Shown: positions 32,225 to 46,218 of the stretch, piece after piece
Layout of the letters: each line of letters starts with the position of its first letter
How positions within the stretch are numbered: the first letter of the stretch is position 1
Assembly (NCBI RefSeq): GCF_000155595.1
Contig: NZ_DS989904.1
Coordinates: forward strand, 2,841,720 to 2,905,719
Origin: Synechococcus sp. PCC 7335
Lineage (GTDB): Bacteria; Cyanobacteriota; Cyanobacteriia; Phormidesmidales; Phormidesmidaceae
Length of the DNA stretch: 64,000 bases
Reading direction: 5' to 3'
Program-made: the position numbers and the translations under genes
The notes under the pieces: generated by a model
The model's database searches: none
Told to the model about the DNA's origin: nothing
Seen by the model: the letters and a program-made list of their open reading frames with translations, nothing else

Positions 32225-35080
32225 CTAAGCCATCTGTCTTTTGATTAGCTGCTTGAACACACCTTCCTCTTGAGCGAGCTGATCAAAGCTTCCTTGCTGA
32301 ACAACTCTGCCAGATTTGATGACGTATATACGATCAGCATGGCGAATGGTGCTCAGCCGATGAGCGACTACAATCCTGGTAACATTGAGCCGATCCAGGC
32401 TCTGACTGACAATAGCTTGGGTTCTGTTATCTAGAGCGCTAGTCGCTTCGTCTAGCAGTAAGATATTTGGGTTTAAAGCTAATGCACGAGCAATCATCAG
32501 GCGCTGTCGCTGCCCTCCAGAGAGATTGCCGCCGCCTTCACTGATAACGGTATGCATCTCCATTGGAAAGCTACGAATATCTTCCGCAAAGCCCGCCATT
32601 TCTGCAGCTCGCCAGGCATCTTCTAGACTGATAAGCGCACCGCCGGAGATGTTTTCGAATAGCGAACCCGCATTGATACGGCCATTTTGTAAGACCACGC
32701 CGAGCTGTCGCCGAACAGCAGCAACATCTAAGCCGGCAACGTCTTGGTTATCGTAATAGACAGTTCCAGACTGAGGAGATTCAAATCCAAGCAGTAGCCG
32801 CAAGACGGTAGATTTACCAGAGCCAGAGGGGCCAACAAGCGCAATAAACTCGCCAGGATGAGCACCTACGGTAACATCGTCTAGGATGAGTGGACCGTCT
32901 TCTCGATAGCGGAAGGTCACATGATCTAGGCAAATGCGTCCGGAAAGGCGACCAGGATCTGATTTTTGGGTGCTAAGTTCGGGTGTGGCGGCTAAGATAG
33001 GTTGCGATCGCATCCATAAGGGGATGACTTCTAGCACTTCAATCACAGTCAAACTGAGGCTAGTTGCTCCATTGATGAAGATGGCGAAGGCAGCGACAAA
33101 CGCTAAGAACGTGCCGCTAGAGAGCCCAGCTGATTGATCTGGGCCCACTAGCGTGGTGGCGATTGCAAACAGCGCAATCGAGGTCAGCGTTGGCATTGCC
33201 GTGTTAAATACATCAACCCCGTCTTCTAACTTTTGGGTACTGAGATCAAGTTTGATTTGCTGTCGATATCGCTGTGCCCATTGCCCAAAAGCACGGGGTT
33301 CAGCGCCTGCTAGCCTTAACTTAGAGACACCATTTATGAGCTGTACCATCAAGCCGTAGATTTCACCATCTAGCTCTAATAGAGGGCGCTGCTTTTTTAA
33401 TAAGAGAATGCCAGATACGATAGTCACTCCCATCACTAGAACAGCAACAAACAGTGCCAGTACCGCTAAACTAGCGCTGTAATAAAACAACAGCCCCAAG
33501 TTCAAAAAGGCAAAAGCGCCGGAAAGAATGGCATCTAAGGCCGTACCGCTGAGCTTACGGCGGATTGTATTGACGCTAGAGACCCTAGCTTGCAAGTCTC
33601 CACTAGAATAGTCTCGAAAGAAAGACGGATGTAGTTTGAGCAACCGATCCCAGACGGCAGCTTGAAGCACTGAGTCAGAGCTAGTCTCTATCCGCATAGC
33701 TGCGATCGCCTGAGCAAATTGAAAACAGCTACGACCAAAGGCTACAGCGAGCAGCAGCAGCCCTAACTCAATCAAGGTCGCCTCGTTGCCATATGGAATG
33801 GCGTCGTCAATTAAGACTGCTGTGGCTTGCGGAATCGCCATGCCTAGCAGACTCATGGCAACGCCAGTTAGAAGAATCATCCACAGATCTTTTTTGTGTC
33901 CCTGCAAAGCAAACTTCAGTAAAACCCAGGCGTTGAGCTGACCTTCAGGTAAGGGACGATAGAATACAAACGCTCTAGGATCGAGCGTGTTCGCAATAGA
34001 TTCAGTGACGAGCGTTCGATTTAGGCTCACTGGATCGAGCAGTTCGTAGCGATTGTCTTTGATCGGCAACAGTGCCATCGGCAGGTGATCTGCTTGGGTA
34101 TAGACCACCATAGGACCGCTATCTTGAGTCCACCAAGGGCCGCGCAGTAGGATTTGCCGCAGGCGTAGCTGAGAAGCTCTGGCGATCGCCTCTAAGGGTT
34201 CTTTGACCTGCTGAAAATTTTCTGAAGTGTTTGGCGCGCGAAGGCTGACGTCTAATACGCGGGCAACGGCCCCTGCAGCGACTAGAAGAGGCGTGTCCGC
34301 CGAGAGAAAGCTGTTGTCTTCGGGCCGCAGCAAAGAGGCCAGTCCTCTTAAGGCCTGATCAGCAGTTTTTTGATTAAGTGACTGCCGCTGCTGAAACTGT
34401 CGTAGGCCAGTCTCTCCTTTTTCGAGGATAATTCTTTCAATTGCGTTCAGCACATACCGATGGAAGCACTCAATCCCACTACTAGCTTCATCGGGTTTGG
34501 TGATCGCCTCTGGCGAATAAACCTGTAGCTCTACGCTCCCACCTTGGGCCTGTAGCCAGGTGCCTTTCGCTATCGGAAACAATCCTACATCTGGGGTTAG
34601 CGGCGATTCGATATGGTCTAGCCAGCTAGCATTGCCTTGCTTGACTTTTATCCATACCATTTTCTCTTGTGAACCATAGCGGATACCGTTTCTTAGTGAG
34701 ATGTACTCAGACGGATTGGGATCTATAGGCGCTGGCGAACGGGGAAAATCTTCTATCGAGCTGAAATGCTCAAACCAGGAAGTAAAGGGAGCGAGCGTAT
34801 GGGAAGTGAGAGAAGGCGTGATCACCGACGGTTCGAAGGCGATCGCGACCAATCCATACGCTTGAGGTGTGCATCCTAGTAGATAGTCTCCTGCTGAGAC
34901 TGTGAAGAGGTAATATCTAGGGCCGGTTAGTTTGCCCTCACTCCAAGTGACCGCAAAAACGCCAACAGATCCCGAACTCACCTGCCAAAAGGAGCCGGGC
35001 TTTTCGAGCAGAAAAGTTTCGTTCCCTGCTAATGTTTTATCAGATGCTTTGTCAGAAGAAGGAGAAAGGACAGAAACCAT
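32225..35080 (-). CDS. NHLP-type peptide export ABC transporter, permease/ATPase subunit
   Basis: This 951-residue protein matches the second ABC subunit of NHLP/NHLM bacteriocin export systems. A large N-terminal region of about 400 residues precedes the transmembrane domain (about 395-660, six helices) and the ATPase domain. The ATPase has Walker A GPSGSGKST at about 756, signature LSGGQRQR, Walker B ILLLDEATSALD and the VVAHRLS switch. There is no C39 peptidase. In known systems it works with the peptidase-containing ABC and an HlyD-like protein to export leader-cleaved peptides. AAGGGAG lies upstream of the ATG, and the gap to the preceding gene is 15 bp. Confidence 0.93.
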   Translation of the reverse strand: MVSVLSPSSDKASDKTLAGNETFLLEKPGSFWQVSSGSVGVFAVTWSEGKLTGPRYYLFTVSAGDYLLGCTPQAYGLVAIAFEPSVITPSLTSHTLAPFTSWFEHFSSIEDFPRSPAPIDPNPSEYISLRNGIRYGSQEKMVWIKVKQGNASWLDHIESPLTPDVGLFPIAKGTWLQAQGGSVELQVYSPEAITKPDEASSGIECFHRYVLNAIERIILEKGETGLRQFQQRQSLNQKTADQALRGLASLLRPEDNSFLSADTPLLVAAGAVARVLDVSLRAPNTSENFQQVKEPLEAIARASQLRLRQILLRGPWWTQDSGPMVVYTQADHLPMALLPIKDNRYELLDPVSLNRTLVTESIANTLDPRAFVFYRPLPEGQLNAWVLLKFALQGHKKDLWMILLTGVAMSLLGMAIPQATAVLIDDAIPYGNEATLIELGLLLLAVAFGRSCFQFAQAIAAMRIETSSDSVLQAAVWDRLLKLHPSFFRDYSSGDLQARVSSVNTIRRKLSGTALDAILSGAFAFLNLGLLFYYSASLAVLALFVAVLVMGVTIVSGILLLKKQRPLLELDGEIYGLMVQLINGVSKLRLAGAEPRAFGQWAQRYRQQIKLDLSTQKLEDGVDVFNTAMPTLTSIALFAIATTLVGPDQSAGLSSGTFLAFVAAFAIFINGATSLSLTVIEVLEVIPLWMRSQPILAATPELSTQKSDPGRLSGRICLDHVTFRYREDGPLILDDVTVGAHPGEFIALVGPSGSGKSTVLRLLLGFESPQSGTVYYDNQDVAGLDVAAVRRQLGVVLQNGRINAGSLFENISGGALISLEDAWRAAEMAGFAEDIRSFPMEMHTVISEGGGNLSGGQRQRLMIARALALNPNILLLDEATSALDNRTQAIVSQSLDRLNVTRIVVAHRLSTIRHADRIYVIKSGRVVQQGSFDQLAQEEGVFKQLIKRQMA

Positions 35081-35095
35081 AGCATTGTATCTCCC

Positions 35096-37486
35096 TTATA
35101 GGGCTGTTCCAGACTGATTGATCAAAGTCGCGTAGTGACCTTCTTGTCGCCAAAGCTCTTCGTGAGTACCCCGTTGTACGACCTGCCCGCGCTCTAGCAC
35201 AATAATTTCATCCGCATCGCGAATAGTGCTTAAGCGGTGAGCGACGATCAAACAGGTACAGCCTCGCCGTCGTAGGTTTTGGTCAATGATTTTTTCGGTT
35301 TCAGAATCTAGCGCACTGGTCGCTTCATCCATAATTAAGATCGAAGGATTGTTGACCAGTGCTCTAGCAATCTCTAACCTTTGCCTCTGTCCGCCACTAA
35401 GGTTTTGACCCCCCTCTAGTAGCTGTGCATCATAGCCATACGGAAGCGCTAAAATGGCTTCCTCGATGGCTGCATCTTGGCAAGCCTGTTGAAGCTGGGC
35501 GTCCGGTACCGTGCTATCCCACAAGGTGAGATTATCCCTGATAGAACCAGCGAATAGCAAAATGTCCTGCTCTACCATAGCAACTGAGTTGGTTATGACT
35601 GCCCGAGGTATTTCTCGTCTGGGTTTGTTGTCAAAGCAGATCTCTCCTACTGTGGGTTGATAGAGTCCAGCAATTATCTTAACTAGGGTAGATTTGCCGG
35701 AACCGCTGCCGCCAACAAAAGCGATTCGCTCCCCAGGTTGAATAGAGAGATTAAAATCTTTAATTAGAGGCGCATCTAAAGGACTATAGCTAAAAGAGAG
35801 ATTAGTAATATTAATCGTACCTGATAGGCGAAAGTGAGGGGAGTGCTGAGCGCCTTTACTGATTTGCTGATCACCTGACTTTTGATGATCGCTTTCACCT
35901 ACAGCACCCAAAGCCTGACTATCAGCCCGGTGATTAGCGTGAGATCTCTCTAGAGACGTCTGCGTAGTGTTCTTACCAAAGCTAGGCCCCTCATCAAAAA
36001 CGATATCTACCTCATTTTCTAGCACATCGTCTAATCTTTCTAAATTTCCTTGTAAAACCTGCAAAGTATTCGCAAATCCAACTAAGTTCCTCACAGGTCC
36101 TTGAAAGCTTTGCATCAGAAGTTGAAAAGCAACCAGCATCCCAATCGAAAGACTACCGTGAATGACCCGCCAGCCGCCGATGATTAAGAGCGCTAATGTA
36201 GTCAGCATGGTCAATAGAGCAGGCAGCAGACCCAGCAGACGGTTGGTTAGGCCAAGCTCTTGCTGGGCATTGGTAGCCTTGGTGTAATAGCCGGCCCAGC
36301 GAGCGAAAAAGTCTGATTCTATGCCGGATGCTTTGAGCGTTTCAATGCTCTGTAGTCCAGCAATGCTGACACCAGAGGCTTTACCGTATTCTTGGGCAAG
36401 GCGGCGGTTGGCATCTGTGCGAGTGCGTGAAACCCACTGCAGTGTCATGACGTTGATAGCGGCAAAGCTGACAACGATCAGGGTGAGTGGAATATCGTAT
36501 TGCCACATGGCGATCGCATAAAAGACAATCATCACCATACTGATGGCTGTCGTTGTCAATCGACCCGACAATACGCCTGCTACGCCGTCATTGAGGCTAA
36601 TGCGATCACTGATCTCTCCGGCAAATCGCTGCGCATAAAAACCAACTGGCAGTCTGAGTACGTGCCATACAAAACGGCTGGTCATTCCTACTGCCAACTT
36701 GACCCTAAGCGATCGCAGGTATCGCAGCTGTAAACCCGTTAATACAGCCTGCAGCAGCACCGTTATTCCCATACCTAGCAGCACGTACGGTAACCAGTCC
36801 AGCCGTTTTGCCAATAGCACATTGTCAATAAAAATCCGGCTAAAGGCAGGCAGCGCTAAGGTTGGGAGCACTAACAAAAAGCCCGTCAGCGCACAAAAGA
36901 CCAGCGCGCCTACTGAACCACTCAATCGTCGCCGAAGACCTGAGATAGCGCTAGCAGGTCTTCCCCCGCGTACAAAGTCTTCGCCGGGCGTGAAGGTGAG
37001 CACAATGCCGGTATAGCCTTCGTCGAAATCAGCCGGCGTGATTTTTCGCGGGCCTAGTGCAGGGTCATTTAAGCGAACACTGGTATCGGTGATTTCATCA
37101 ACAACCAAAAAATGGTTGAAATTCCAAAAAACAATAAACGGCGGTGCTAGCGCTTTGAGCGAATCAATACTCTTTTTGTATCCCTTGCTAAGTAGACCAT
37201 AGTTGCGGGCGGCCTTAAGCACGTTGGCAGCAGTCACCCCATCGCGAGAGACACCACAAGAAGCTCTGAGCTCAGCCAAAGGAATAAAGCGACCATAGTA
37301 GCCCAGCACCATGCTAAGAGCTGCTGCTCCGCATTCTACTGCCTCCATCTGAAAAACAGTGGGTGTTTTAGACCGCTTCGGCCGCTGCTTGGATGCTGAT
37401 TGGTGATTCGGCTTTTTGTTGAAACTCTTTGAACTTCTGCCCTGGCGCTGGTCGGACGGCTGAGCTGTCATCGGACTAGCTGTCAT
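35096..37486 (-). CDS. NHLP-type peptide export ABC transporter with C39 leader peptidase
   Basis: This 796-residue protein is the maturation and export subunit. The C39 cysteine peptidase domain (about 42-165) is intact: oxyanion Gln and catalytic Cys in FQMEAVECGAAAL, His in NHFLVVDEI and Asp in LNDPALG. Such domains cut after double-glycine leaders. A six-helix membrane domain (about 190-480) and an ATPase domain follow, with Walker A GGSGSGKST, LSGGQRQR and ILIMDEATSALD. A polar insertion at about 500-550 precedes the ATPase. It starts one base after the HlyD-like stop codon. It should process the peptide at 39741, whose leader ends in GG. Confidence 0.95.
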   Translation of the reverse strand: MTASPMTAQPSDQRQGRSSKSFNKKPNHQSASKQRPKRSKTPTVFQMEAVECGAAALSMVLGYYGRFIPLAELRASCGVSRDGVTAANVLKAARNYGLLSKGYKKSIDSLKALAPPFIVFWNFNHFLVVDEITDTSVRLNDPALGPRKITPADFDEGYTGIVLTFTPGEDFVRGGRPASAISGLRRRLSGSVGALVFCALTGFLLVLPTLALPAFSRIFIDNVLLAKRLDWLPYVLLGMGITVLLQAVLTGLQLRYLRSLRVKLAVGMTSRFVWHVLRLPVGFYAQRFAGEISDRISLNDGVAGVLSGRLTTTAISMVMIVFYAIAMWQYDIPLTLIVVSFAAINVMTLQWVSRTRTDANRRLAQEYGKASGVSIAGLQSIETLKASGIESDFFARWAGYYTKATNAQQELGLTNRLLGLLPALLTMLTTLALLIIGGWRVIHGSLSIGMLVAFQLLMQSFQGPVRNLVGFANTLQVLQGNLERLDDVLENEVDIVFDEGPSFGKNTTQTSLERSHANHRADSQALGAVGESDHQKSGDQQISKGAQHSPHFRLSGTINITNLSFSYSPLDAPLIKDFNLSIQPGERIAFVGGSGSGKSTLVKIIAGLYQPTVGEICFDNKPRREIPRAVITNSVAMVEQDILLFAGSIRDNLTLWDSTVPDAQLQQACQDAAIEEAILALPYGYDAQLLEGGQNLSGGQRQRLEIARALVNNPSILIMDEATSALDSETEKIIDQNLRRRGCTCLIVAHRLSTIRDADEIIVLERGQVVQRGTHEELWRQEGHYATLINQSGTAL

Positions 37487-37487
37487 T

Positions 37488-38096
37488 TTACTGGCCTAAA
37501 AAAGGAAAGACAAACGTAATAGGCGCTCTTTCTTTGAGCGTGACCCGGGCGATCGCTGGCATCCCTGCAATCGGAGCCATATCATTAGACCCTGTCGACC
37601 AAGCATAGTCACCACTCTCACTTTTATCAGGAATGGTGACCACCTCAACGTAGGTTTGTTCATTCCTATTTTCTCTAGCTGACTCGATCGTAGTGATAGA
37701 CGGTTCTGAAACAGAATCTACAGTAGCCATTAATCCCCCAGCCACTTGCGCCCCTTCTACATCTGGAATCAGTAAAACCTCCATGCCCGGTTCGATCTGA
37801 GCAATCTCTCCAGCACTAAAGTAGGCGACCCCGACTAGTTGCTTTGGTGGAGCGTCTAAAGAAGATGCGGGTAGTGCATTGTTAGGCGCATCTGCATAGA
37901 CTAGCGCCCCGCGTCCGGTAGTGGTGACAGGAATGCGTCCAACAAAGCTCCAAATCAATCCGCAAGTTAGGAGTCCGCCTAGTGCAGCTAAAGGTAACCA
38001 GCTACGTGGGTTGATAATTCTCATCAATTGATCTAACTGTTCAGGAGAAGAGAGCCTTTCTACTGCCTCCTTTCGAAAAATGCTGTTGTCGTCCAT
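37488..38096 (-). CDS. Short HlyD-like secretion protein of the NHLP system
   Basis: The N-terminus FRKEAVERLSSPEQLDQLMRI followed by one transmembrane helix (about 38-60) is diagnostic of the NHLP secretion protein. The product is only about 202 residues, whereas usual members are roughly twice that and carry a long coiled-coil hairpin between two half-lipoyl motifs. Here one beta-rich region follows the helix directly, ending in a PITFVFPFLGQ strand, so the hairpin is missing. I chose the ATG at 38096 because family similarity begins there; the open frame continues upstream to 38210. It lies between the CNB-like gene and the peptidase ABC. Confidence 0.85.
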   Translation of the reverse strand: MDDNSIFRKEAVERLSSPEQLDQLMRIINPRSWLPLAALGGLLTCGLIWSFVGRIPVTTTGRGALVYADAPNNALPASSLDAPPKQLVGVAYFSAGEIAQIEPGMEVLLIPDVEGAQVAGGLMATVDSVSEPSITTIESARENRNEQTYVEVVTIPDKSESGDYAWSTGSNDMAPIAGMPAIARVTLKERAPITFVFPFLGQ

Positions 38097-38169
38097 GCTA
38101 TCTATTGTCCTAGCAGAAATTCTACTGATATTGCCAGCAGGTATTGCCAGTGGGTAATACTGTCGATAC

Positions 38170-39240
38170 CTAGCCGATTGCTGTGCTAAGTCGCTTGAGC
38201 ATCCAGTCAAACTTTTGAGCCCCTTGTGAAGCCTGCTGCAGTGCTTCCAAATCTAGTTCGCCTTCATCCTCTATGTTGGTCGTCGCACTGCGACATTCGA
38301 CTGCGGTGACAGACGCAAGCAACTGAGCGGTTTGAGTAGCCATCACTCGATAGAACCTAGCTGCAAAGCCAAGATCCTCTTGAAGTTTAATCAAGACCCA
38401 CTGACGAGGGATTGCTAATACCTTTGATTCTTTAGTCGCATGAACTCTGACCGGAAGGGGTTTGAAGTCTAGAAAAGAGATAACGCCAGGTAGGCTGCCT
38501 TTAGAGATATAGGCAACGGGTGTAAACGCAGAGCACTGCTCTTGTAAGCCATGAGAGCAGGCCGATAACGGATCATAAGGGATGTCGGTAGTCGCGATCG
38601 CCAGTTGACCGTCTAATACGGTATAGAGAGCATCGACCGGGCGACCCATATTTAATAGAACGTCTTCGGCAGCGACGCTCTTGACTTGCCCGATACTCAT
38701 CATCCAATCAATATCACTATCTTTCAGCTCTCCAAAAACAAACAGCGCTTCTTTTACCATCTGCCCGGACTGATAGCGTAATAGATCGGGATTGCTCGCT
38801 GCTTCAAACTGAGTACGAATTCGCTCTGAAGTAATCAGCGCAATCGTCCGATAAAAATGCGCTGCAAAGCTGACCTCTGTCTGTAGCTTCTGGCGCAGCA
38901 GTTCTCCTTGAATGGTCAGCACCAGCGCCTCTCCATTGGCGGAGGTCACACTCACCGGAGAACTATCAAACAGCCAACTGGCCCCAATCAAATCTCCACG
39001 GGACAATTCAGCAAAGGCCTCGCCGCTGCATGGCGCACTCATCGCTAGCTTGCCTTCTAAGACCAAATACAGCGCGTCTAAACGATTGCTAGCAGAGCTA
39101 TCAAAACTATCGTCACCATCATTGAAATTGACTCCGGGGGCAATTAGCACCGCACCATCAGCTAAAGACTGACGCTGACCAGTCGTCACCATCCAGTCAA
39201 TATCAGCGTTACTCATCTCACGAAGCAAAATATCTGACAT
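38170..39240 (-). CDS. Tandem cyclic-nucleotide-binding-like domain protein of the export operon
   Basis: This 356-residue protein has two homologous halves (about 1-150 and 165-315). Each begins with a D-x-D-WM phrase (NADIDWMVTTGQ, DSDIDWMMSIGQ) and continues through LDALYLVLEGKLA or VDALYTVLDGQLA, then a GD/GS turn and a helix. This matches the cyclic-nucleotide-monophosphate-binding fold. The strict phosphate-binding GE-x-A/S motif and Arg are not clear, so the domains may bind another ligand or none. CNB-domain proteins are known neighbours of NHLP exporters. It is the first gene of the operon, facing the precursor across 500 bp. Confidence 0.82.
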   Translation of the reverse strand: MSDILLREMSNADIDWMVTTGQRQSLADGAVLIAPGVNFNDGDDSFDSSASNRLDALYLVLEGKLAMSAPCSGEAFAELSRGDLIGASWLFDSSPVSVTSANGEALVLTIQGELLRQKLQTEVSFAAHFYRTIALITSERIRTQFEAASNPDLLRYQSGQMVKEALFVFGELKDSDIDWMMSIGQVKSVAAEDVLLNMGRPVDALYTVLDGQLAIATTDIPYDPLSACSHGLQEQCSAFTPVAYISKGSLPGVISFLDFKPLPVRVHATKESKVLAIPRQWVLIKLQEDLGFAARFYRVMATQTAQLLASVTAVECRSATTNIEDEGELDLEALQQASQGAQKFDWMLKRLSTAIG

Positions 39241-39740
39241 AGGGAATCAATTGTTAAGTATCGCTGTGGATTAATGATTCAAGCGCAGGAGTTCGAGAGC
39301 CACAGGTGAGTAGAGTTAGGCAAGTCAGGCTAGCTTCACTATCAAAGCATAAACATAACGGTTGCTCATACAATCGATGTTTGGATCGATACAAAAATTA
39401 GAACAGAAAGGTTGTTTTAAGACGATTTTGAGCTTTCTCTCACCTCTCTCTCATTCTCCTCTCATAATCTCTTTAGGTTATCTCCTGTTGAGTTAAGAGT
39501 TGTAATCTGAAGTGCAAGGCGGCGAATATTTTGCGTTAGCGTTTGTAATGATGAGATGCGTAGCAATTGAACTTGTTCTTTTGGTTTGTTTGAAGGTAGT
39601 AAGTTTTATTGCTCGCAATCGATTTTGATTGATAGAAGTAACGCGACTTACTCCACAAAACTCGTCCTCTTAACGGTTCGGACGTCATGTAGGTGTTGTC
39701 CGGATACGCTCAAACTGTTCGTAACTACAAGGTGATTAAA
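39241..39740 (+). promoter_or_regulatory. 500-bp divergent control region between export operon and precursor peptide
   Basis: No gene is seen. The region separates the export operon (leftward) from the precursor (rightward). It has a 45-bp pyrimidine-rich tract at about 39430-39476 and ATCGAT palindromes at 39373-39378, 39385-39390 (12 bp apart) and about 39618. Just before the ATG, AAGGTG at 39729-39734 is a good ribosome binding site. The length suggests several regulator sites. I cannot place promoters with confidence. Confidence 0.55.
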
Positions 39741-39917
39741 ATGGCAGAAGAAAACAAAAACGTCACAGATACTGAGCTTTCTGATGACCAATTAAAAGAA
39801 GTTGCTGGTGGTAAAAACGTTCACAAGACTCGTTTAGAGCATTTGGACAACCAGACTAAAAGTGTTGACGACGTTCAAGATACTCGTTTAGAGCACTTGG
39901 ACAATCAGACTAAATAG
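39741..39917 (+). CDS. Double-glycine leader peptide with two identical 11-residue core repeats (candidate RiPP or secreted peptide precursor)
   Basis: A 58-residue precursor. Residues 1-24 form a leader with the classic pattern ELSDDQLKEVAGG, i.e. L-S-x2-x-L-x2-V-x-GG ahead of the cut site. Residues 25-58 form the core, carrying TRLEHLDNQTK at 30-40 and again at 48-58 with no change, separated by SVDDVQD. There is no Cys and no Trp; Thr, Glu, Asp, Lys, His and Asn recur. The ATG at 39741 is fixed by AAGGTG 6 bp upstream; the open frame runs further upstream without similarity. The divergent C39 transporter operon is its likely exporter. No maturase is encoded nearby. A terminator follows at 40017. 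Confidence 0.88.
   Translation: MAEENKNVTDTELSDDQLKEVAGGKNVHKTRLEHLDNQTKSVDDVQDTRLEHLDNQTK
39828..39914 (+). repeat. Two 33-bp coding repeats in the precursor gene
   Basis: Copies at 39828-39860 and 39882-39914, starting every 54 bp (18 codons). They differ at two positions (CAT/CAC and AAC/AAT), both synonymous, so the encoded 11 residues are identical. Confidence 0.95.
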
Positions 39918-40016: not shown

Positions 40017-40056
40017 AAACCATCAGGGCGTAGCATGCTACGCTCTGATGGTTTTT
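40017..40056 (+). terminator. Strong intrinsic terminator of the precursor gene
   Basis: A 17-bp stem (40017-40033 with 40038-40054) with one G-U pair and a CATG loop, followed by a run of five T. It lies 100 bp after the precursor stop and would make a short monocistronic transcript of the precursor. Confidence 0.88.
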
Positions 40057-40255: not shown

Positions 40256-40906
40256 ATGGTTGGCAAACGATTTCTGGTAGTTGACGATCACGAAGCAATT
40301 TTGGAAGGAACTATTCCAGCTCTACAACAACAGTATCCAAGTGCTGAAATCTATACAGCGCAATGTATGCGAGCAGCTGAGAAGCAAATTGACGGACTCA
40401 GTTTAGATTTGGTCATTGTGGACTTAAGCTTACCCATAGAACCGACTATGCCAGCAACTTCCAAAGTCGGTGTAGAGCTATTGAGCAAGCTGATGCGAAG
40501 CGATGACGCACCCAATTTAATGGTGCTTAGCACAAATGTAAAACCATTGATTCGTTTGAAGCCGCTGATAAACTCATACGGAGGGGGATTTGTCGCTATG
40601 GACAAAGCAGCTCCCATTCAAGTGATGCTCAAATCTGTAGAGATTGCACTACGAGGTTCAATCCACTTGCCCCCGGAAGTAAGAGCTAGGGTAGAGTTTG
40701 ATCCCAAGTGGTTGAAAGTCATTGAGTTGAAGTACCAAGAGGGATTGTCTGACCAGGCGATCGCCCGGAGACTAGGTGTAAGCGATCGCACCGTCCGCAA
40801 CTATTGGACTCGCATTCAAGATGCCCTACAGGTCTACGATGATCCTAGCCAAGATTTGCGAGTACAAATTCAGCTGGCTGCTCGTAGAGCTGGGTTTATC
40901 AGCTAA
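40256..40906 (+). CDS. LuxR/NarL-type response regulator A, next to the precursor gene
   Basis: This 216-residue protein has an N-terminal receiver with the acidic pair (VVDDHEAIL), the phosphoacceptor Asp in VIVDLSLP at about 58 and the conserved Lys in VAMDKAAP, so it looks phosphorylatable. The C-terminal helix-turn-helix (about 155-185) reads EGLSDQAIARRLGVSDRTVRNYW, related to LuxR/sigma region 4. A tail with VQIQLAARRAGFI follows. A ribosome binding site, GGGGA, lies about 11 bp before the ATG. It is highly similar to the regulator at 42020. The likely phospho-donor is the CHASE2 kinase at 42995, and the likely target is the precursor or export promoter (inferred). Confidence 0.93.
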   Translation: MVGKRFLVVDDHEAILEGTIPALQQQYPSAEIYTAQCMRAAEKQIDGLSLDLVIVDLSLPIEPTMPATSKVGVELLSKLMRSDDAPNLMVLSTNVKPLIRLKPLINSYGGGFVAMDKAAPIQVMLKSVEIALRGSIHLPPEVRARVEFDPKWLKVIELKYQEGLSDQAIARRLGVSDRTVRNYWTRIQDALQVYDDPSQDLRVQIQLAARRAGFIS

Positions 40907-40924
40907 AGAATCACTAAAGGATTA

Positions 40925-41677
40925 TTAGGACAAACCATCTTCTCGGAAAATATAGCCGACACTACGAACAGTGTGAACTAAGCGAATCTCGCTGTTCGCC
41001 TCGAGCTTTCTTCTTAGGTAGCGGATATAAACTTCAATGATGTTGGAACTTCCCATATATTCGTAGCCCCATACATTCTCTAGAATTTGAGATCTCGTCA
41101 ATACTTGAAAGTAGTGACACATCAGATACTCTAGTAAATCGAACTCTTTGGCTGTTAGACGAATAAAGCGATCGCCTCGAAAGACCTCTCTGGTTCTGCG
41201 GTTGAGCTGGACGTCTGCGCATCGCAAAACCGCAGACTCAAGGCGAGAACTTTGATTACGCAGCAGATTGGCGTGAATTCTAGCCAATAATTCTTCTCGA
41301 TCGCAAGGCAGCGAAAGACAGTCATTGGCACCTGCTTCTAGTCCGGCAATTCTCTGATTGACGTTGTCTTGGTCAGTTAGCAAAATGATTGGCGCCTCAC
41401 CTTGGCTAGCTCGAAGGCGCTGACAAATCTCTAATCCTGAAATTCTTGGCGGCGACCAGCCTACAACAACTAAATCAGTGGCTACCCGTTGAACGGCTAG
41501 GAGCCCTCTAATACCATCGCTGATTACGCTAACTTGGAATCCTTCACGATTGAGTTCTATCTGCAAAGACTCAGCTAATTCTGGCTGGTCGGCGATGATC
41601 AGAATGTGTTGAAGTTGAGGTAAACGAGACCGACGAAGGGGTTGCGTACCTAGACGTTCCTGCGTAGCTTGAAGCAT
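40925..41677 (-). CDS. OmpR/PhoB-type regulator with degenerate receiver
   Basis: The 250-residue protein has a PhoB-like winged helix at the C-terminus (LTAKEFDLLEYLM, VWGYEYMGSSNIIEVYIRYLRRKLE, VRSVGYIFRE). The receiver, at about 24-140, has lost its phosphorylation residues. The usual DD pair is AD (IIADQPELA), the phosphoacceptor Asp is replaced by Gly in VVVGWSPPRISG, and the conserved Lys before PF is Leu (LSLPCDREEL). It is therefore probably phosphorylation-independent. The gene is convergent with regulator A and about 340 bp from regulator B. Confidence 0.93.
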   Translation of the reverse strand: MLQATQERLGTQPLRRSRLPQLQHILIIADQPELAESLQIELNREGFQVSVISDGIRGLLAVQRVATDLVVVGWSPPRISGLEICQRLRASQGEAPIILLTDQDNVNQRIAGLEAGANDCLSLPCDREELLARIHANLLRNQSSRLESAVLRCADVQLNRRTREVFRGDRFIRLTAKEFDLLEYLMCHYFQVLTRSQILENVWGYEYMGSSNIIEVYIRYLRRKLEANSEIRLVHTVRSVGYIFREDGLS

Positions 41678-42019
41678 TGGTAATTGAACCTATGAAAATA
41701 GGTTTAGTACGGTTTCGCTGACAGCTATTCTGGCCTAGGTCCTACGAAAATACACGAAGAAACACGGCAAACCCCTTTCCGATTTTGGAAAGAAGGTAGG
41801 GGAAGTAGTAGATTACCCAGTCCTTTTAGTTTAGCGACTTCAAGAAGCTCAAGGTAAGTATAGTAAACGCTATCAAAGTTTCAGTTTGTTCAAACGGTTT
41901 AATATTTCGCTATTGTATGCATTACAGCAATATGTGTACTCTCTTTTGCCTAGTTCAAACGCTGACTAGGTGTTTCAATCTGGGTTTTATCCTCGAATCA
42001 GTCTGAGGGCGCTTGTTGG
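41678..42019 (-). other. Intergenic region upstream of the degenerate OmpR-type regulator
   Basis: About 340 bp between two minus-strand genes, so it should hold the promoter of the OmpR-type gene. It is AT-rich around 41880-41940. No further gene or clear repeat is seen. Confidence 0.5.
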
Positions 42020-42697
42020 CTATGGAATCAACCCTGCCTCGCGAGCAGCTAGCTGAATCTGAATACGGAGATCTCGGCGGTTATCGTCTATCACTTGAAG
42101 GGCATCTTGAATCCTTAGCCAATAGTTGCGCACGGTGCGATCGCTTACACCCAACTGCCGGGCGATCGCCTGGTCGGAGAGTCCCTCTTGATACTTCAGC
42201 GTCAGTACCTTCAGCCACCTGCGATCAATCTCAGGGCGGGCTCGTACCTCTGGTGGCAGATAGATAGATCCGCGTAAGGCAATATCTACTCTGTTCAAAG
42301 CGGTCTGTAATGGCTCTGACTTTTCCAAGGCTACAAATCCACTTTGATAAGAGTTAATCACAGATTTTAGGCGAATTAGAGGACGAATATTAATACTAAA
42401 GACCATCAGGCTAGGAGCTAACTCACTAGTCAATAGCTGTTCTAAAAGTCTAATACCTGTTGTAACGGTAGCCGGGGACTGTTGAGTCATTGGTAAGATT
42501 AAATCTACCAAGATGAAAGTAGGAGACTGAGTAGCTATGATCCTTTCGGCTGCTTGAACATTCCTTGCAGTCATAATTTTGGCCTCTGGATAGCGCTGCT
42601 GCAGTCCAGGCAAGATGCCTGCTAGAATCGCCTCGTGATCGTCGATAAGTAAAAAGCGCTGAGGGAGAATCCGTGGAGATGTGTTTTTAGAAGCCAT
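42020..42697 (-). CDS. LuxR/NarL-type response regulator B, paralogue of the one at 40256
   Basis: About 225 residues from the ATG at 42697; the frame extends to a GTG at 42715. The receiver is intact: DDHEAIL, phosphoacceptor Asp in ILVDLILP and Lys in VALEKSEP. The helix-turn-helix EGLSDQAIARQLGVSDRTVRNYW is nearly identical to that of regulator A, as are the IALRGSIYLPPEVRAR linker and the IQLAAREAGLI tail. Shared recognition helices imply overlapping DNA targets. It lies downstream of the CHASE2 kinase on the same strand, the expected order for a kinase-regulator pair. Confidence 0.93.
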   Translation of the reverse strand: MASKNTSPRILPQRFLLIDDHEAILAGILPGLQQRYPEAKIMTARNVQAAERIIATQSPTFILVDLILPMTQQSPATVTTGIRLLEQLLTSELAPSLMVFSINIRPLIRLKSVINSYQSGFVALEKSEPLQTALNRVDIALRGSIYLPPEVRARPEIDRRWLKVLTLKYQEGLSDQAIARQLGVSDRTVRNYWLRIQDALQVIDDNRRDLRIQIQLAAREAGLIP

Positions 42698-42994
42698 ATT
42701 TGATAGATGCTGCACCAGTTAAGGAAGTTTAAGTTTTTACATGGAGGAAAGAGTAGTTTCCTCTAGAAATGAGCTGTCCGGTAGCGAAGCTCGAAGTTAA
42801 AAAAGTCGAGTTAAAAAGGTTGAGTTAAAAGCAACCTGACATAGATTGCTGATGATTAGTGAAACGTGGAAGCGTTCTTGATAGCTAATTTGATTTAGTA
42901 AGCGTCTAGCGGTTTACGAGTTGGGATTTGTCTAGGTTAGTTAGCGCTCTTAGATAGCGTGTCAATAGCGTGATTAGCAGGCAGTTAAGAGATC
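42698..42994 (-). other. Spacer between CHASE2 kinase and regulator B, with short repeats
   Basis: About 300 bp. At 42796-42823 GTTAAAAAAGTCGA is followed by GTTAAAAAGGTTGA, and GTTAAAAGCAACC continues the pattern. No gene is seen. Confidence 0.5.
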
Positions 42995-44938
42995 TCATCG
43001 TCTAGATCTCATTAGACGCTTCTTTGGCCAGGTAAGTTCGCAGACCGTGCCTTTTGGATGGTGAGGTCTGCGTTGGAACTCTCCTCGCAACCGCTGTGCA
43101 ATTGCGATCGCCTGGCGGGTTCCCTGTCTAGCTGGCCTAGAGAAGTCGAGTCCGACGCCATTGTCAATAATCTGTAACTTGTAGAGAGTTTCCTCAGCGA
43201 TACAAACAACGTCTAACCGGGTAGCTCCTAGGGCATGATTACCTACGTTCAAGAGAGATTCTTGTAAAAATAAGCAAAGTCCTCTTTTTTCTTCTAAGGT
43301 GAAACGAGCCTCTGAAAAGGTTTCAAAAATAGGTGTCACAAAAGCTTGTATCTGAGCAAACCCGGCTAGCGGCTGACTGAGAGTATGTTCGTAGACTTGA
43401 TAGAGTAGATCGCTTAGAGGCTGATGTAAATCGAAGAATGTGCTGTCGTCTATATATAGGCTGTTGCGGTAGCTGAAAGTTTCTTGGCGCATCGTTTCAA
43501 AGATGTTGCGCATTTCAGTACTGAGCGATCGTAATCGCTGTTCTAACTGTTCTTGAGACAAATTTGCTGTGCTACTAATCTGACGAGATAATGCACTCAA
43601 ATGCTGTAAAGGCCCGTTATGGACCGCTTCATACGTTCGCTCGATAGTAGAGCGCCTTTGAGCCAATTCAAAGCGCATGTCTCTATCGAAAAAGGCGGTT
43701 GTCAACCCCGCTCCACCCAGTGCTAGCACCGCCGGGACCACTGGTGTCCACACATTCTGTACTAAAAGCCCAAAGCTTATCAAGATCAGTATTAGCGCTG
43801 TGACGCTTAGCACAAAGACGCTTTTCCAAGGTGACATCAAAGCCACACTAATGCCAATACCGACCAAGCCCCAGCAAACAATGTAGAAATACTCTATCAG
43901 GTCTGGCCAGGTTCGTAGCGCACAGTCTTCTTCTAAGACAGACCTAACAATCTGTTGAACGACAAGCGAATGAACCTCAATGCCATAGATGATCTTAGTG
44001 GGATGTTGAGACAATGACTGCGTCGAATGAAGCGTTGTCTTCGCAGCTGAGGTAATAAAGCTGTCTTTGGTGGCGACAGCGGCTCTACCGACGATGACAA
44101 TGCGATCTCGTAGGATCTGTGGATCGACCTCACCGGCTAAGAGCGCGCGAAGTGAGACTGTTTCAAAAGACTGTTGTAACATGCAAAAGTTTAGCAGCAT
44201 CTGAGTGCCACTATCGTCGGTGCGAACATATCCACCTGAGTTGGAATGGAACTCAGGCAGCGTAGTTGAGCCAAATTTGATAGGATTACTAGAATCCTCT
44301 ATTCCTGATCCAATAGCGAGTTCAGGATTTCTATCAGCTTCTGTACGCAGATAATAGCGAGCAAGTCGAGCTGCTAACGAATACTTTTGAATGCCAGCTT
44401 CGTCTTTAGTCGCTAGTACCACCCGCCGCAGTTTGCCATCAGAATCAATAGCGACATCAGCAAAGCCTATCTGTTCGGAAGGCACGCCTTCGGGCGGGGC
44501 AACATTCATATTTGTAGCTCCGCTCAGGGCAATTTCAGCAACAATAACGTTCGGCATAGAAGTCAGCACATCACCTAATAACGAGTATTCTTCTCCTCTA
44601 GGCAAATCTCTAACGATATCTAGACCTATCACCCTCGGCCGGTAGGTCTGTAACTGTTGTAGGGCCTGAGTTAGAATTTCTGCTGAGATGGGGATACCAG
44701 TGATCTGATAATCTTCTTCATCAATAGTAATGCGGACTACTTTTAGCGTTCCTGTAGAGCTAGGGCAGTAGCGAGAGAAAGTATCCAAGTTCATCCACTC
44801 TTGCGTCTGTAGCAACCCGCTTAGCCGCACTATGCAGACAATGCCGATAACAAGCGCACCGGGTACAATCAGCTCTTTCGTAACAGAATGCTGATAGGTT
44901 AGCTGATGAACTATTCGTGCTTTAATCTCTCTCAACAT
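42995..44938 (-). CDS. CHASE2-domain sensor histidine kinase
   Basis: This 647-residue membrane kinase has a first helix at about 25-42, then an extracytoplasmic CHASE2 sensor (about 45-330, with RPRVIGLDIVRDLPRG and IVIVGRAAVATKDSF). Three helices follow at about 345-425, typical of CHASE2 proteins. The cytoplasmic part has a NarL-class phosphoacceptor His in VHNGPLQHLSAL at about 442 and a HATPase domain with LQESLLNVGNHA (N box) and IIDNGVGLD (G1 box). This class pairs with LuxR-type regulators, and two lie just downstream. The signal it senses is unknown. Confidence 0.92.
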   Translation of the reverse strand: MLREIKARIVHQLTYQHSVTKELIVPGALVIGIVCIVRLSGLLQTQEWMNLDTFSRYCPSSTGTLKVVRITIDEEDYQITGIPISAEILTQALQQLQTYRPRVIGLDIVRDLPRGEEYSLLGDVLTSMPNVIVAEIALSGATNMNVAPPEGVPSEQIGFADVAIDSDGKLRRVVLATKDEAGIQKYSLAARLARYYLRTEADRNPELAIGSGIEDSSNPIKFGSTTLPEFHSNSGGYVRTDDSGTQMLLNFCMLQQSFETVSLRALLAGEVDPQILRDRIVIVGRAAVATKDSFITSAAKTTLHSTQSLSQHPTKIIYGIEVHSLVVQQIVRSVLEEDCALRTWPDLIEYFYIVCWGLVGIGISVALMSPWKSVFVLSVTALILILISFGLLVQNVWTPVVPAVLALGGAGLTTAFFDRDMRFELAQRRSTIERTYEAVHNGPLQHLSALSRQISSTANLSQEQLEQRLRSLSTEMRNIFETMRQETFSYRNSLYIDDSTFFDLHQPLSDLLYQVYEHTLSQPLAGFAQIQAFVTPIFETFSEARFTLEEKRGLCLFLQESLLNVGNHALGATRLDVVCIAEETLYKLQIIDNGVGLDFSRPARQGTRQAIAIAQRLRGEFQRRPHHPKGTVCELTWPKKRLMRSRR

Positions 44939-45237
44939 GTTGCCTTAGCAGATAAGCTACTTCGATATAAAGTTCAGCTGCATCTGAACATCTATAACCA
45001 TAAGGCTTTGACTAAGGTGGATAAATTAGCCATTGCTGAGAATTGTATGACAGGCGATCAGCGAGTTCTTCGAGAGAACTCAGTCGGTTCTACCATGACA
45101 ATCAGCTCAAGGTGAATAGATGAAAAACAACACTTTTTCCAATTAGAAAGCCAGCTTAGAGCAATAAAAAGAGCAATAAAACTGCGTTCATACTTCAGAA
45201 TAAAGAAACGACCTGCAATAAGTACAGCAACTCAGTA
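44939..45237 (-). other. Intergenic region upstream of the CHASE2 kinase
   Basis: About 300 bp, expected to contain the kinase promoter. A 69-codon plus-strand frame at 44906-45115 overlaps the kinase start and is rejected. Nothing else is seen. Confidence 0.45.
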
Positions 45238-46218
45238 TCACTTCTTGTGCTTTCTATCCTTTTTGAGGGTAGCAAAGCCACCTAGCACATTTCCAGATAA
45301 AAGTCCAGATGCAGCCCTACCTGCAGGCTCTGGTTTCTCACCAATCCAAGACTCTATCGTTTGTACCTTATCAAGTGATAAACCAGTATTCGCAATGATA
45401 TCTACTAAGCCAGCCTCGACGCCTTTAGATACTTCTAATCCAAAACGCAGAGGCTCACCAATCATGTTGAATACAGCCGTTCCTAGCCTAGTTCTTTCAT
45501 CGTTCACTAACGCTTCTGAAAAGAAATCAAAGGCGATCGCACTTCCATCCCCACAAACTTGATTCATCAGTGCAAATCCCTTCTCAACCTCAGCTTTCGT
45601 TAGGTAATAAGTCACGCCTTCCCATAAAAAGAATGTTCGCTTTCCTAAATTGAATCCGCCTGAAATTAGTCCCTGCATCCAGTCTTCATCAGCAAAGTTG
45701 ACTGTGACAAAATGCACGTTGCCGATATCGATACCGCTTTGCTTTAAAGCTTGTTTCTTCACGGCTTGGGTTTCTATTTGATCGACTTCAAACAGCCCTA
45801 AATCTCGCCCTCGACAATACTCGTACAGACGGGTGTCAAATCCTGCACCTAGAATTACGACCTGTTCTACAGACACTAAGGCTACTGACAACGCTTGGTC
45901 AAAAAAGACTGTGCGATCTCTCAACATGCTCGCTAGGGTTCTCTCTGATGTCTTTGGTGGCGAGGCGATCGCTAACCAGTCGGCAACCCCTATTGCTAGC
46001 AAAACTGGACCCATACCTGCACACAATAAGCTGTAGCTTTGCCCAAAGAGTACCTGCACTAGCCGAGCTGCACTGGCATCAGGGCGTCTGCCTTGCCAAT
46101 GCATCATCCATCGCACTAACAAAGGAACCAGTGCCGTTATCGAGAAATGTTTATTTAAGAAGGAATCTTCTGGCAACAGTTCTATAAAAGTGCTGCCGAC
46201 GCGTCTAGTGCTGTTCAT
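45238..46218 (-). CDS. Class I SAM-dependent methyltransferase, leucine-carboxyl-methyltransferase-like
   Basis: A 326-residue enzyme of the LCM/PPM1-like family. The SAM-binding strand is VVILGAGFDTRLYEY at about 120-135, with an acidic ribose-binding residue in LFEVDQ and the later motifs FFLWEGVTYYL and IAFDFF. Bacterial members of this broad family methylate small molecules or carboxylates; the substrate is not deducible. It overlaps the upstream membrane gene in an ATGA (4 bp), indicating translational coupling. It lies next to the peptide system, but its separate operon with a membrane partner makes a role there doubtful. Confidence 0.88.
   Translation of the reverse strand: MNSTRRVGSTFIELLPEDSFLNKHFSITALVPLLVRWMMHWQGRRPDASAARLVQVLFGQSYSLLCAGMGPVLLAIGVADWLAIASPPKTSERTLASMLRDRTVFFDQALSVALVSVEQVVILGAGFDTRLYEYCRGRDLGLFEVDQIETQAVKKQALKQSGIDIGNVHFVTVNFADEDWMQGLISGGFNLGKRTFFLWEGVTYYLTKAEVEKGFALMNQVCGDGSAIAFDFFSEALVNDERTRLGTAVFNMIGEPLRFGLEVSKGVEAGLVDIIANTGLSLDKVQTIESWIGEKPEPAGRAASGLLSGNVLGGFATLKKDRKHKK

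Follow-up and report, generated by a model that had tools for sequence, protein, structure and literature searches.

A small double-glycine precursor of Synechococcus sp. PCC 7335 shares its repeat unit with Sec-type repeat proteins of the same genome

In the window analyzed here, a stretch of 64,000 nucleotides from Synechococcus sp. PCC 7335, a small gene encodes the peptide TRLEHLDNQTK twice, which raises the question of what this repeat is and why it is kept. According to the initial annotation, the two core repeats differ only at synonymous positions, and this was confirmed by the sequence and its translation: the 33-bp copies are mismatched at 39842/39896 (CAT/CAC) and 39851/39905 (AAC/AAT), and both changes are synonymous. 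The sequence encoded by the gene is MAEENKNVTDTELSDDQLKEVAGG / KNVHKTRLEHLDNQTKSVDDVQDTRLEHLDNQTK, and its features are the following.

39741..39917, + strand: double-glycine (GG) precursor gene of type A, 58 amino acids plus stop (sequence and homologues)
39741..39812, + strand: leader, residues 1-24, with the ELSDDQLKEVAGG motif at its end (sequence)
39828..39860, + strand: repeat 1, TRLEHLDNQTK (sequence)
39861..39881, + strand: SVDDVQD, named a linker in the initial annotation, a piece of an 18-residue unit (unit comparison)
39882..39914, + strand: repeat 2, TRLEHLDNQTK, C-terminal (sequence)
40017..40054, + strand: terminator-like hairpin 3' of the precursor gene (sequence)

A Shine-Dalgarno-like AAGGTG (39729-39734) is separated from the ATG by six bases. 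The mature part of 34 residues consists of one pair of units, the second repeat forming the C-terminal end of the protein. The duplication extends past the 33 bp, to 53-nt copies (39808-39860 and 39862-39914) with an 83% match. The best match of the leader, confined to the leader region, was the CTB family bacteriocin model NF038167; as it reached only 19.0 bits of the 32 required, membership in this family was rejected. TIGR03793 and TIGR03798 (NHLP / Nif11 leader) were absent from the matches of the precursor at E up to 1.

The chance that two random substitutions in this 33-mer are both synonymous is 3.7%, or 15.5% if only transitions are considered, so the two-base argument is weak when taken alone, as had been acknowledged from the start. 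The case for selection becomes strong in the comparison with the closest homologue (L064): across both repeats there are 10 synonymous changes and no non-synonymous one, as compared with 0 and 3, respectively, in the 7-codon linker and 8 and 2 in the leader. Since none of the changes in the repeats alters an amino acid, the window peptide is under selection, as first proposed, and low pN/pS ratios in GG and Sec genes point in the same direction. When the 11 GG homologues were compared in all 55 pairs, pN/pS was 0.11 for repeat 1, 0.20 for the linker and 0.27 for repeat 2, with pN values of 0.094, 0.139 and 0.200, respectively. The expectation that the repeats are constrained beyond the linker thus holds for repeat 1 but not, between lineages, for repeat 2, which exceeds the linker in variability, mostly owing to a subfamily with RLDQLDERTK at this place. 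Conservation extends to the linker too, which belongs to the 18-residue unit.

A search of the 58-residue protein against its own genome gave 21 matches, some of them weak. They include the gene itself, a second GG precursor (MENKAND...) with a unit spacing of 20 residues and, at L017, a GG peptide whose core is unrelated, while the remaining matches are open frames with 18-residue units, RLEHLDNQTKAVDDIQAT. Because these other genes of the genome carry whole 18-residue units, SVDDVQD is the remaining part of the unit rather than a linker joining two cores. At least four other genes look intact and start with a putative Sec-type signal, e.g. MKNILFSALALAATTLTFTPVANAAE, as judged by reading the N-terminal sequence; by eye, 7 units were counted in each of L010 and L011, 6 in L012 and 2 in the short L016. 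The GG gene and the Sec genes are unlinked in the genome. Further copies (L013 and L014/L015) look decayed, their frames having no recognisable signal start, and a stop lies inside the L013 match and likewise inside one of the two L014/L015 copies.

L014 and L015 are located near both ends of contig C2 of this genome (G000), where the genes around the Sec-like copy are duplicated in inverted order, most of them being 100% identical; this duplication may stem from the assembly, or the replicon may have long ends that are inverted. A separate observation concerns GG precursors with related leaders and unrelated cores, e.g. GSHKQIEEHF... and RPPSGDSNPSD..., which were seen at L017 (9640-9864), L081 (302-532) and L120 (1420-1596), the last with a CTCAG/CTCAT array of four, 11 bp apart, upstream.

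Within seven Sec genes, pN/pS was 0.07-0.24 for the core and 0.14-0.50 for the rest of the unit, and the core value was the lower one in six of them (the exception being L025). In six of these genes, the core has nearly saturated synonymous sites (pS 0.82-0.88; 0.60 in L025). The best DNA identities between the two GG repeats of the window and Sec units of the genus are 80% and 83%. A recent gene conversion between GG and Sec genes was rejected on these grounds, and the low identity argues that the shared peptide is kept by selection and not by recent copying. The two repeats of the window gene, 93% identical over 30 nt, go back to a duplication or conversion of more recent date.

Four unit types exist in relatives, each of them found within one genome both as a GG peptide and as a predicted Sec protein. 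For the 18-residue type A, named records of the GG form come from Cf. Phormidesmis LEGE 11477, Leptolyngbya, Adonisia, Leptothoe and a Leptolyngbyaceae MAG, and the Sec form occurs in Vasconcelosia and others. The type B unit, FDELRRENLDKDAVN, has a period of 15 inside a 38-residue superunit and is present in GG precursors and in Sec proteins, with 14 motif copies in the Sec protein of L138. Type C, LTGRSAQEFTDGLGNK, was found in both forms in one genome (G037), with three units in the GG precursor and ten in the Sec protein, and the RFDEARRENLDKG-like type D again includes both forms. In type D GG precursors, a second leader such as ELSEDQLKNVAGG stands between the copies, most of which have their own GG site, and a second GG is also present in some type B precursors (L034, L219). 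Homologues of this kind lend indirect support to the earlier proposal that each repeat is released as a separate unit. Types A and B look homologous, since the R-x-E-x-L-D motif is equally distant from GG in both; unit spacings of 15, 16, 20 and 22 residues are found in homologous types.

Sec-B scored 42.8 against TIGR02953 (pentapeptide MXKDX repeat proteins; cut-off 41), a model that we take to describe the pentapeptide MXKDX repeated every 5 residues. Despite a score above the cut-off, this assignment was rejected, as KD appears once per 15-residue unit and not every 5 residues; types A, C and D gave no match to this model. The Pfam matches of the Sec proteins (DUF5388, RHH_3 etc.) vary from member to member, have the look of repeat or composition effects and were likewise discarded. 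Searches of solved structures with the GG family and one Sec-A protein, of a plasmid collection with Sec-A and Sec-B, and of viral contigs with the GG family gave no match. The location of Sec-A/Sec-B genes next to acetate kinase was dismissed as coincidence, being seen only in G000, G014 and G027 of the 28 genomes in which acetate kinase was found, with an orientation in G000 that differs from the other two.

Among 63 genomes of the family, GG-A is present in 8 and GG-B in 17. Sec-A accompanies GG-A in 8/8 and Sec-B in 0/8 genomes; Sec-B accompanies GG-B in 15/17 and Sec-A in 0/17, and in the two type B genomes without a partner (G034, G075) the GG gene itself was the sole match. A script found a signal-like start plus repeats in at least one frame of all 23 paired genomes. 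Sec matches without a GG gene occur in 7/15 Sec-A and 13/28 Sec-B genomes (20/43), the latter count excluding G034 and G075 and the frames having been inspected for part of these genomes. Overall, 23 genomes have GG and Sec, 2 have GG alone, 20 have Sec alone and 18 have neither, a co-occurrence with a one-sided Fisher p of 0.0008, uncorrected for kinship and incomplete assemblies. A type D GG precursor is present in 8 genomes, 7 of which have a Sec-D match besides the GG gene; the matches of G207 and G242 are weak and failed the script filter for a signal-like start plus repeats, and no Sec partner was found in G289. Among 291 genomes drawn from the class, Sec-A was present in 10, all within this family and one of them weak, Sec-D matches were obtained in 29, with type B proteins included among the matches, and Sec-C matches in 5, of which two contain the GLGNK unit.

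The normalised similarity between the GG core and the Sec protein of its own genome averaged 0.72, as compared with 0.41 after permutation of the partners, and 0 of 100000 permutations reached 0.72 (13 genera, one genome each). The preference for the own genome was not significant within type B (p 0.10); within type D, where the score used only the last core of each precursor, p was 0.04, as low a value as four genomes allow. Since the types follow clades, there are about three independent changes behind the pairing: it is by type, about three changes deep, and not by strain. The fact that the GG and Sec forms change repeat type together suggests that they are extracellular partners. Alternatively, the precursor could be a plain bacteriocin-like peptide of group V (see below), whose likeness to the Sec proteins reflects old common descent without a joint function. 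This would agree with the apparent homology of types A and B, with the restriction of the types to clades and with the weak pairing within types. However, independent drift would hardly turn both forms to the same type, and the peptide is kept although the synonymous sites of Sec-A are near saturation, which makes this explanation quite improbable to us.

Direct repeats spaced by exactly 11 bp are found upstream of many Sec genes, in all four types, and read approximately CTCAG-N6 / CTTAAG-N5 / CTCAG-N6 / GTCAG-N6 / CTCAG-N6 followed by a block like GCAYTMTAG-AA-TCAAG. Chains of at least three blocks had a period of 11 in 36 of 64 Sec upstream regions, as against 0-2 for periods of 8-10 and 12-15, and the array form with one poor block allowed was found in 42 of 64, as against 0 in 50 rounds of shuffling. 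Several of the 22 upstream regions without the array retain three blocks, and others (e.g. L118, L193) show nothing; in the genome of the window, three blocks are present at L011 and L012, and the array scan found none at L010. In 1.30 million bases of fetched loci and the window, 48 distinct strict arrays were counted, a number that refers to loci chosen around these genes, some of them overlapping, and is not genome-wide. For 46 of the 48, the listed downstream protein is a repeat protein with a signal-like start; at L220 the script listed another frame, the Sec start being present, and at L126 there is a repeat frame without a clear signal start. As an additional observation, an 8-9 bp hairpin like AATCAATG-N9-CATTGATT stands directly before the ribosome site of Sec-A genes of the genus (L010, L011, L012, L082 and L097), and a similar hairpin is also present in L084.

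The precursor of the window is itself preceded by repeats of this spacing.

39439..39482, + strand: direct repeats CTCAC/CTCAT/CTCAT/TTTAG at an exact spacing of 11 bp, with CATAAT inside, upstream of the precursor

The alignment with the upstream region of the orthologue in G002 revealed similar 11-bp-spaced repeats. A spacing of 11 bp is typical of sites of the PhoB/OmpR family, and the repeats at 39439-39482 are suggestive of a putative response-regulator site. Chains of at least three blocks at 11 bp were found in 5 of 43 GG upstream regions, with a half-site that differs from that of the Sec genes, and in G000 and G002 no GG upstream region resembled a Sec upstream region beyond shuffles. 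For these two genomes, the idea that GG and Sec genes have upstream sequence in common was dropped, as they share the 11-bp spacing alone.

The repeats had also been proposed to place both motifs on one face of a helix. AlphaFold predicted a single helix for the GG protein (residues 24-57, mean pLDDT 74, shallow alignment of 11 rows) as well as for a Sec-A protein (residues 33-173, mean pLDDT 73, shallow alignment of 5 rows). The proposal was not supported: the predicted helix is continuous, but the hydrophobic moment at 100 degrees of type A was not above shuffles, neither in five Sec sequences (z -0.1 to -3.0) nor in two GG cores (z 0.4 and -0.1), and the spacing varies. The moment was not above shuffles in four Sec sequences of type B, whereas it was above shuffles in two of type C (z 3.8 and 3.4; glycine 13-18%) and in one of four of type D (z 4.5). 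One sticky helix face as a general principle was abandoned, because types A and B have no such moment and the period differs between types.

The export route of the precursor is suggested by an NHLP-type exporter cluster on its other side.

38170..39240, - strand: cyclic-nucleotide-binding-domain protein, TIGR03896, divergent from the precursor (profile matches, above cut-off)
37488..38210, - strand: short HlyD-like adaptor (TIGR03794, 105.6 bits, under the cut-off of 156.2)
35096..37486, - strand: C39-peptidase ABC exporter, NHLM_micro_ABC1, TIGR03796 (above cut-off)
32225..35080, - strand: second ABC transporter, NHLM_micro_ABC2, TIGR03797 (above cut-off)

PF00027 matches lie in three stretches of the TIGR03896 protein. 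The second ABC transporter gave no PF00027 (CAP_ED) match in Pfam at E up to 1, its first 260 residues having been compared with Pfam only. The better of two matching stretches of the HlyD-like adaptor corresponds to positions 1-55 of the 421 of TIGR03794. A TIGR03896 homologue adjoins the GG gene in 8 of 18 loci of relatives and is divergent in 8/8; the remaining loci have the short HlyD alone (4/18) or neither (6/18), some of these being short contigs. HlyD-like adaptors of about 200 residues (37488-38210, L049, L051, L060) have their best match in the first 55 positions of TIGR03794 and perhaps represent a conserved short form. DM13-domain proteins were noticed near two type B GG loci (L051, 2926-3462; L057, 7071-7568). 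Maturases of the ATP-grasp, LanM, YcaO or radical SAM kind were not detected, with E up to 1e-5, among 10 neighbours in the window or among 10 proteins of four relative loci, so that these genes lend no support to a graspetide, lanthipeptide or other modified peptide.

The precursor belongs to a known exporter-linked class, and its repeat is part of an exported family that exists in two formats. We consider it plausible, though short of probable, that the precursor is a small exported peptide, a short version of the Sec-exported repeat family with one superunit, and a partner of the repeat polymer. The C39 domain would cut the precursor after GG24, leaving a peptide with KNVHK at its start, and the GG peptide would be exported without modification. 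Outside the cytoplasm it would associate with the Sec proteins via like-with-like repeat contacts, and could tune the polymer in the periplasm, the sheath or the biofilm matrix in the role of a short chain, seed or cap. The short HlyD-like protein, as its sequence suggests, may be without the long hairpin to an outer-membrane channel, in which case the periplasm could be the place where both forms meet. This contact, its location and the joint function are our best reading of the sequences at hand. More tentatively, the two forms might constitute a two-format extracellular system, with one unit exported by Sec as a polymer, encoded by a gene family under coordinate regulation, and by a bacteriocin-type exporter as a single superunit. 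The formats would then co-evolve in unit type, since extracellular recognition between units needs a match, and the GG peptide would be the short-chain modulator.

GG without Sec in 2/25 genomes, compared with Sec without GG in 20/43, is the pattern that a dependence of the GG peptide on the polymer would produce. The same imbalance resembles that of orphan immunity, and the GG peptide could be a bacteriocin that inhibits relatives, with Sec proteins in the periplasm serving as decoys to capture peptide of their own type. The exporter cluster is indeed of the bacteriocin type, and the GG and Sec types match, as immunity must. On the other hand, the Sec genes are numerous, unlinked to the GG gene and in many cases under their own common promoter, and the mature type A peptide has no amphipathic moment above shuffles. 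We know of no immunity protein that copies its toxin, which further counts against such decoys, and we regard them as unlikely.

Beyond the precursor lies a group of regulatory and other genes.

40256..40906, + strand: response regulator with sigma-r4-like HTH, neighbour of the precursor (profile matches)
40925..41677, - strand: OmpR-type response regulator, 97% identical in G002, 1 kb from the precursor
42020-42715, - strand: paralogue of the response regulator at 40256..40906 (profile matches)
42995..44938, - strand: CHASE2 sensor with a weak HATPase match, neighbour of the precursor (profile matches)
45241-46218: LCM-type (leucine carboxyl methyltransferase-like) gene, 5 kb from the precursor

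It is a guess that the OmpR-type regulator is tied to the precursor, and the LCM-type methyltransferase could act as a modifier of something. G002 retains the gene set 40256-46218 beside its precursor, including the regulators, the CHASE2 sensor and the methyltransferase-like gene. These genes bring up another explanation, in which both forms are precursors of one signal, cut outside the cytoplasm into the same unit peptide, which is then sensed. The CHASE2 sensor and the response regulators would be candidate sensors, retained in G002, and the unit sequence is conserved while number and spacing are variable. Most type D precursor copies moreover have their own GG site, and PatX provides a precedent for export followed by cutting, in that case by PatP, as far as the available text of PMC12756182 describes it. 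Yet no obvious protease site between the units was seen by inspection, and the window and G002, both of one genus, were the only two cases in which two-component genes were observed beside the GG gene. A common signal of this kind is not likely in our judgment, and we retain the reading of the GG peptide as a partner of the Sec polymer.

Cyanobacterial genomes contain many GG-leader precursors without an assigned purpose, which are filed as bacteriocins. One class of them has here a partner of the same sequence, encoded in the genome and using another export route, which gives a handle on function. The 11-bp-spaced promoter of the Sec genes, shared by four types, offers a route to the controlling regulator and to the condition of production.

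No description of the repeat family or of the combination of GG and Sec repeats was found in the open-licence literature searched. The cluster of the window is like the group V bacteriocin-type clusters described by Wang, Fewer and Sivonen (2011; PMC3140520), as presented in the part of that paper that was available, in having a CAP_ED-domain protein, a short C39 ABC transporter, an extra ABC transporter without peptidase and short GG precursors nearby. Group V also includes HlyD, for which the window has the short HlyD-like protein under the cut-off. In group V, the extra transporter is said to resemble the long type and to carry a CAP_ED domain (PMC3140520), whereas Pfam listed none at E up to 1 for the second transporter of the window. 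The words "repeat" and "tandem" have 0 occurrences each in the text of PMC3140520, which thus deals neither with repeated cores nor with a Sec family sharing the core. The EbfG1-4 proteins of Synechococcus elongatus are, from what the accessible portions of PMC4997328 and PMC9981879 report, small GG-motif proteins whose efficient secretion needs the C39 transporter PteB, and EbfG4 is present both on the cell surface and within the biofilm matrix. They are like the window peptide in size, GG motif and C39 transporter, and differ from it, in the same portions of these papers, in having no repeat unit and no Sec partner family; the mature EbfG proteins are said there to be without homologues in other cyanobacteria (PMC4997328, PMC9981879). 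PatX, a small precursor that is exported and then cut by PatP outside the cytosol, has a hexapeptide, HRGTGR, as its active part, compared with the unit of 15-22 residues here, and no C39 exporter, going by the sections of PMC12756182 at hand; with the GG peptide it has in common one short motif in a small exported precursor (PMC12756182).
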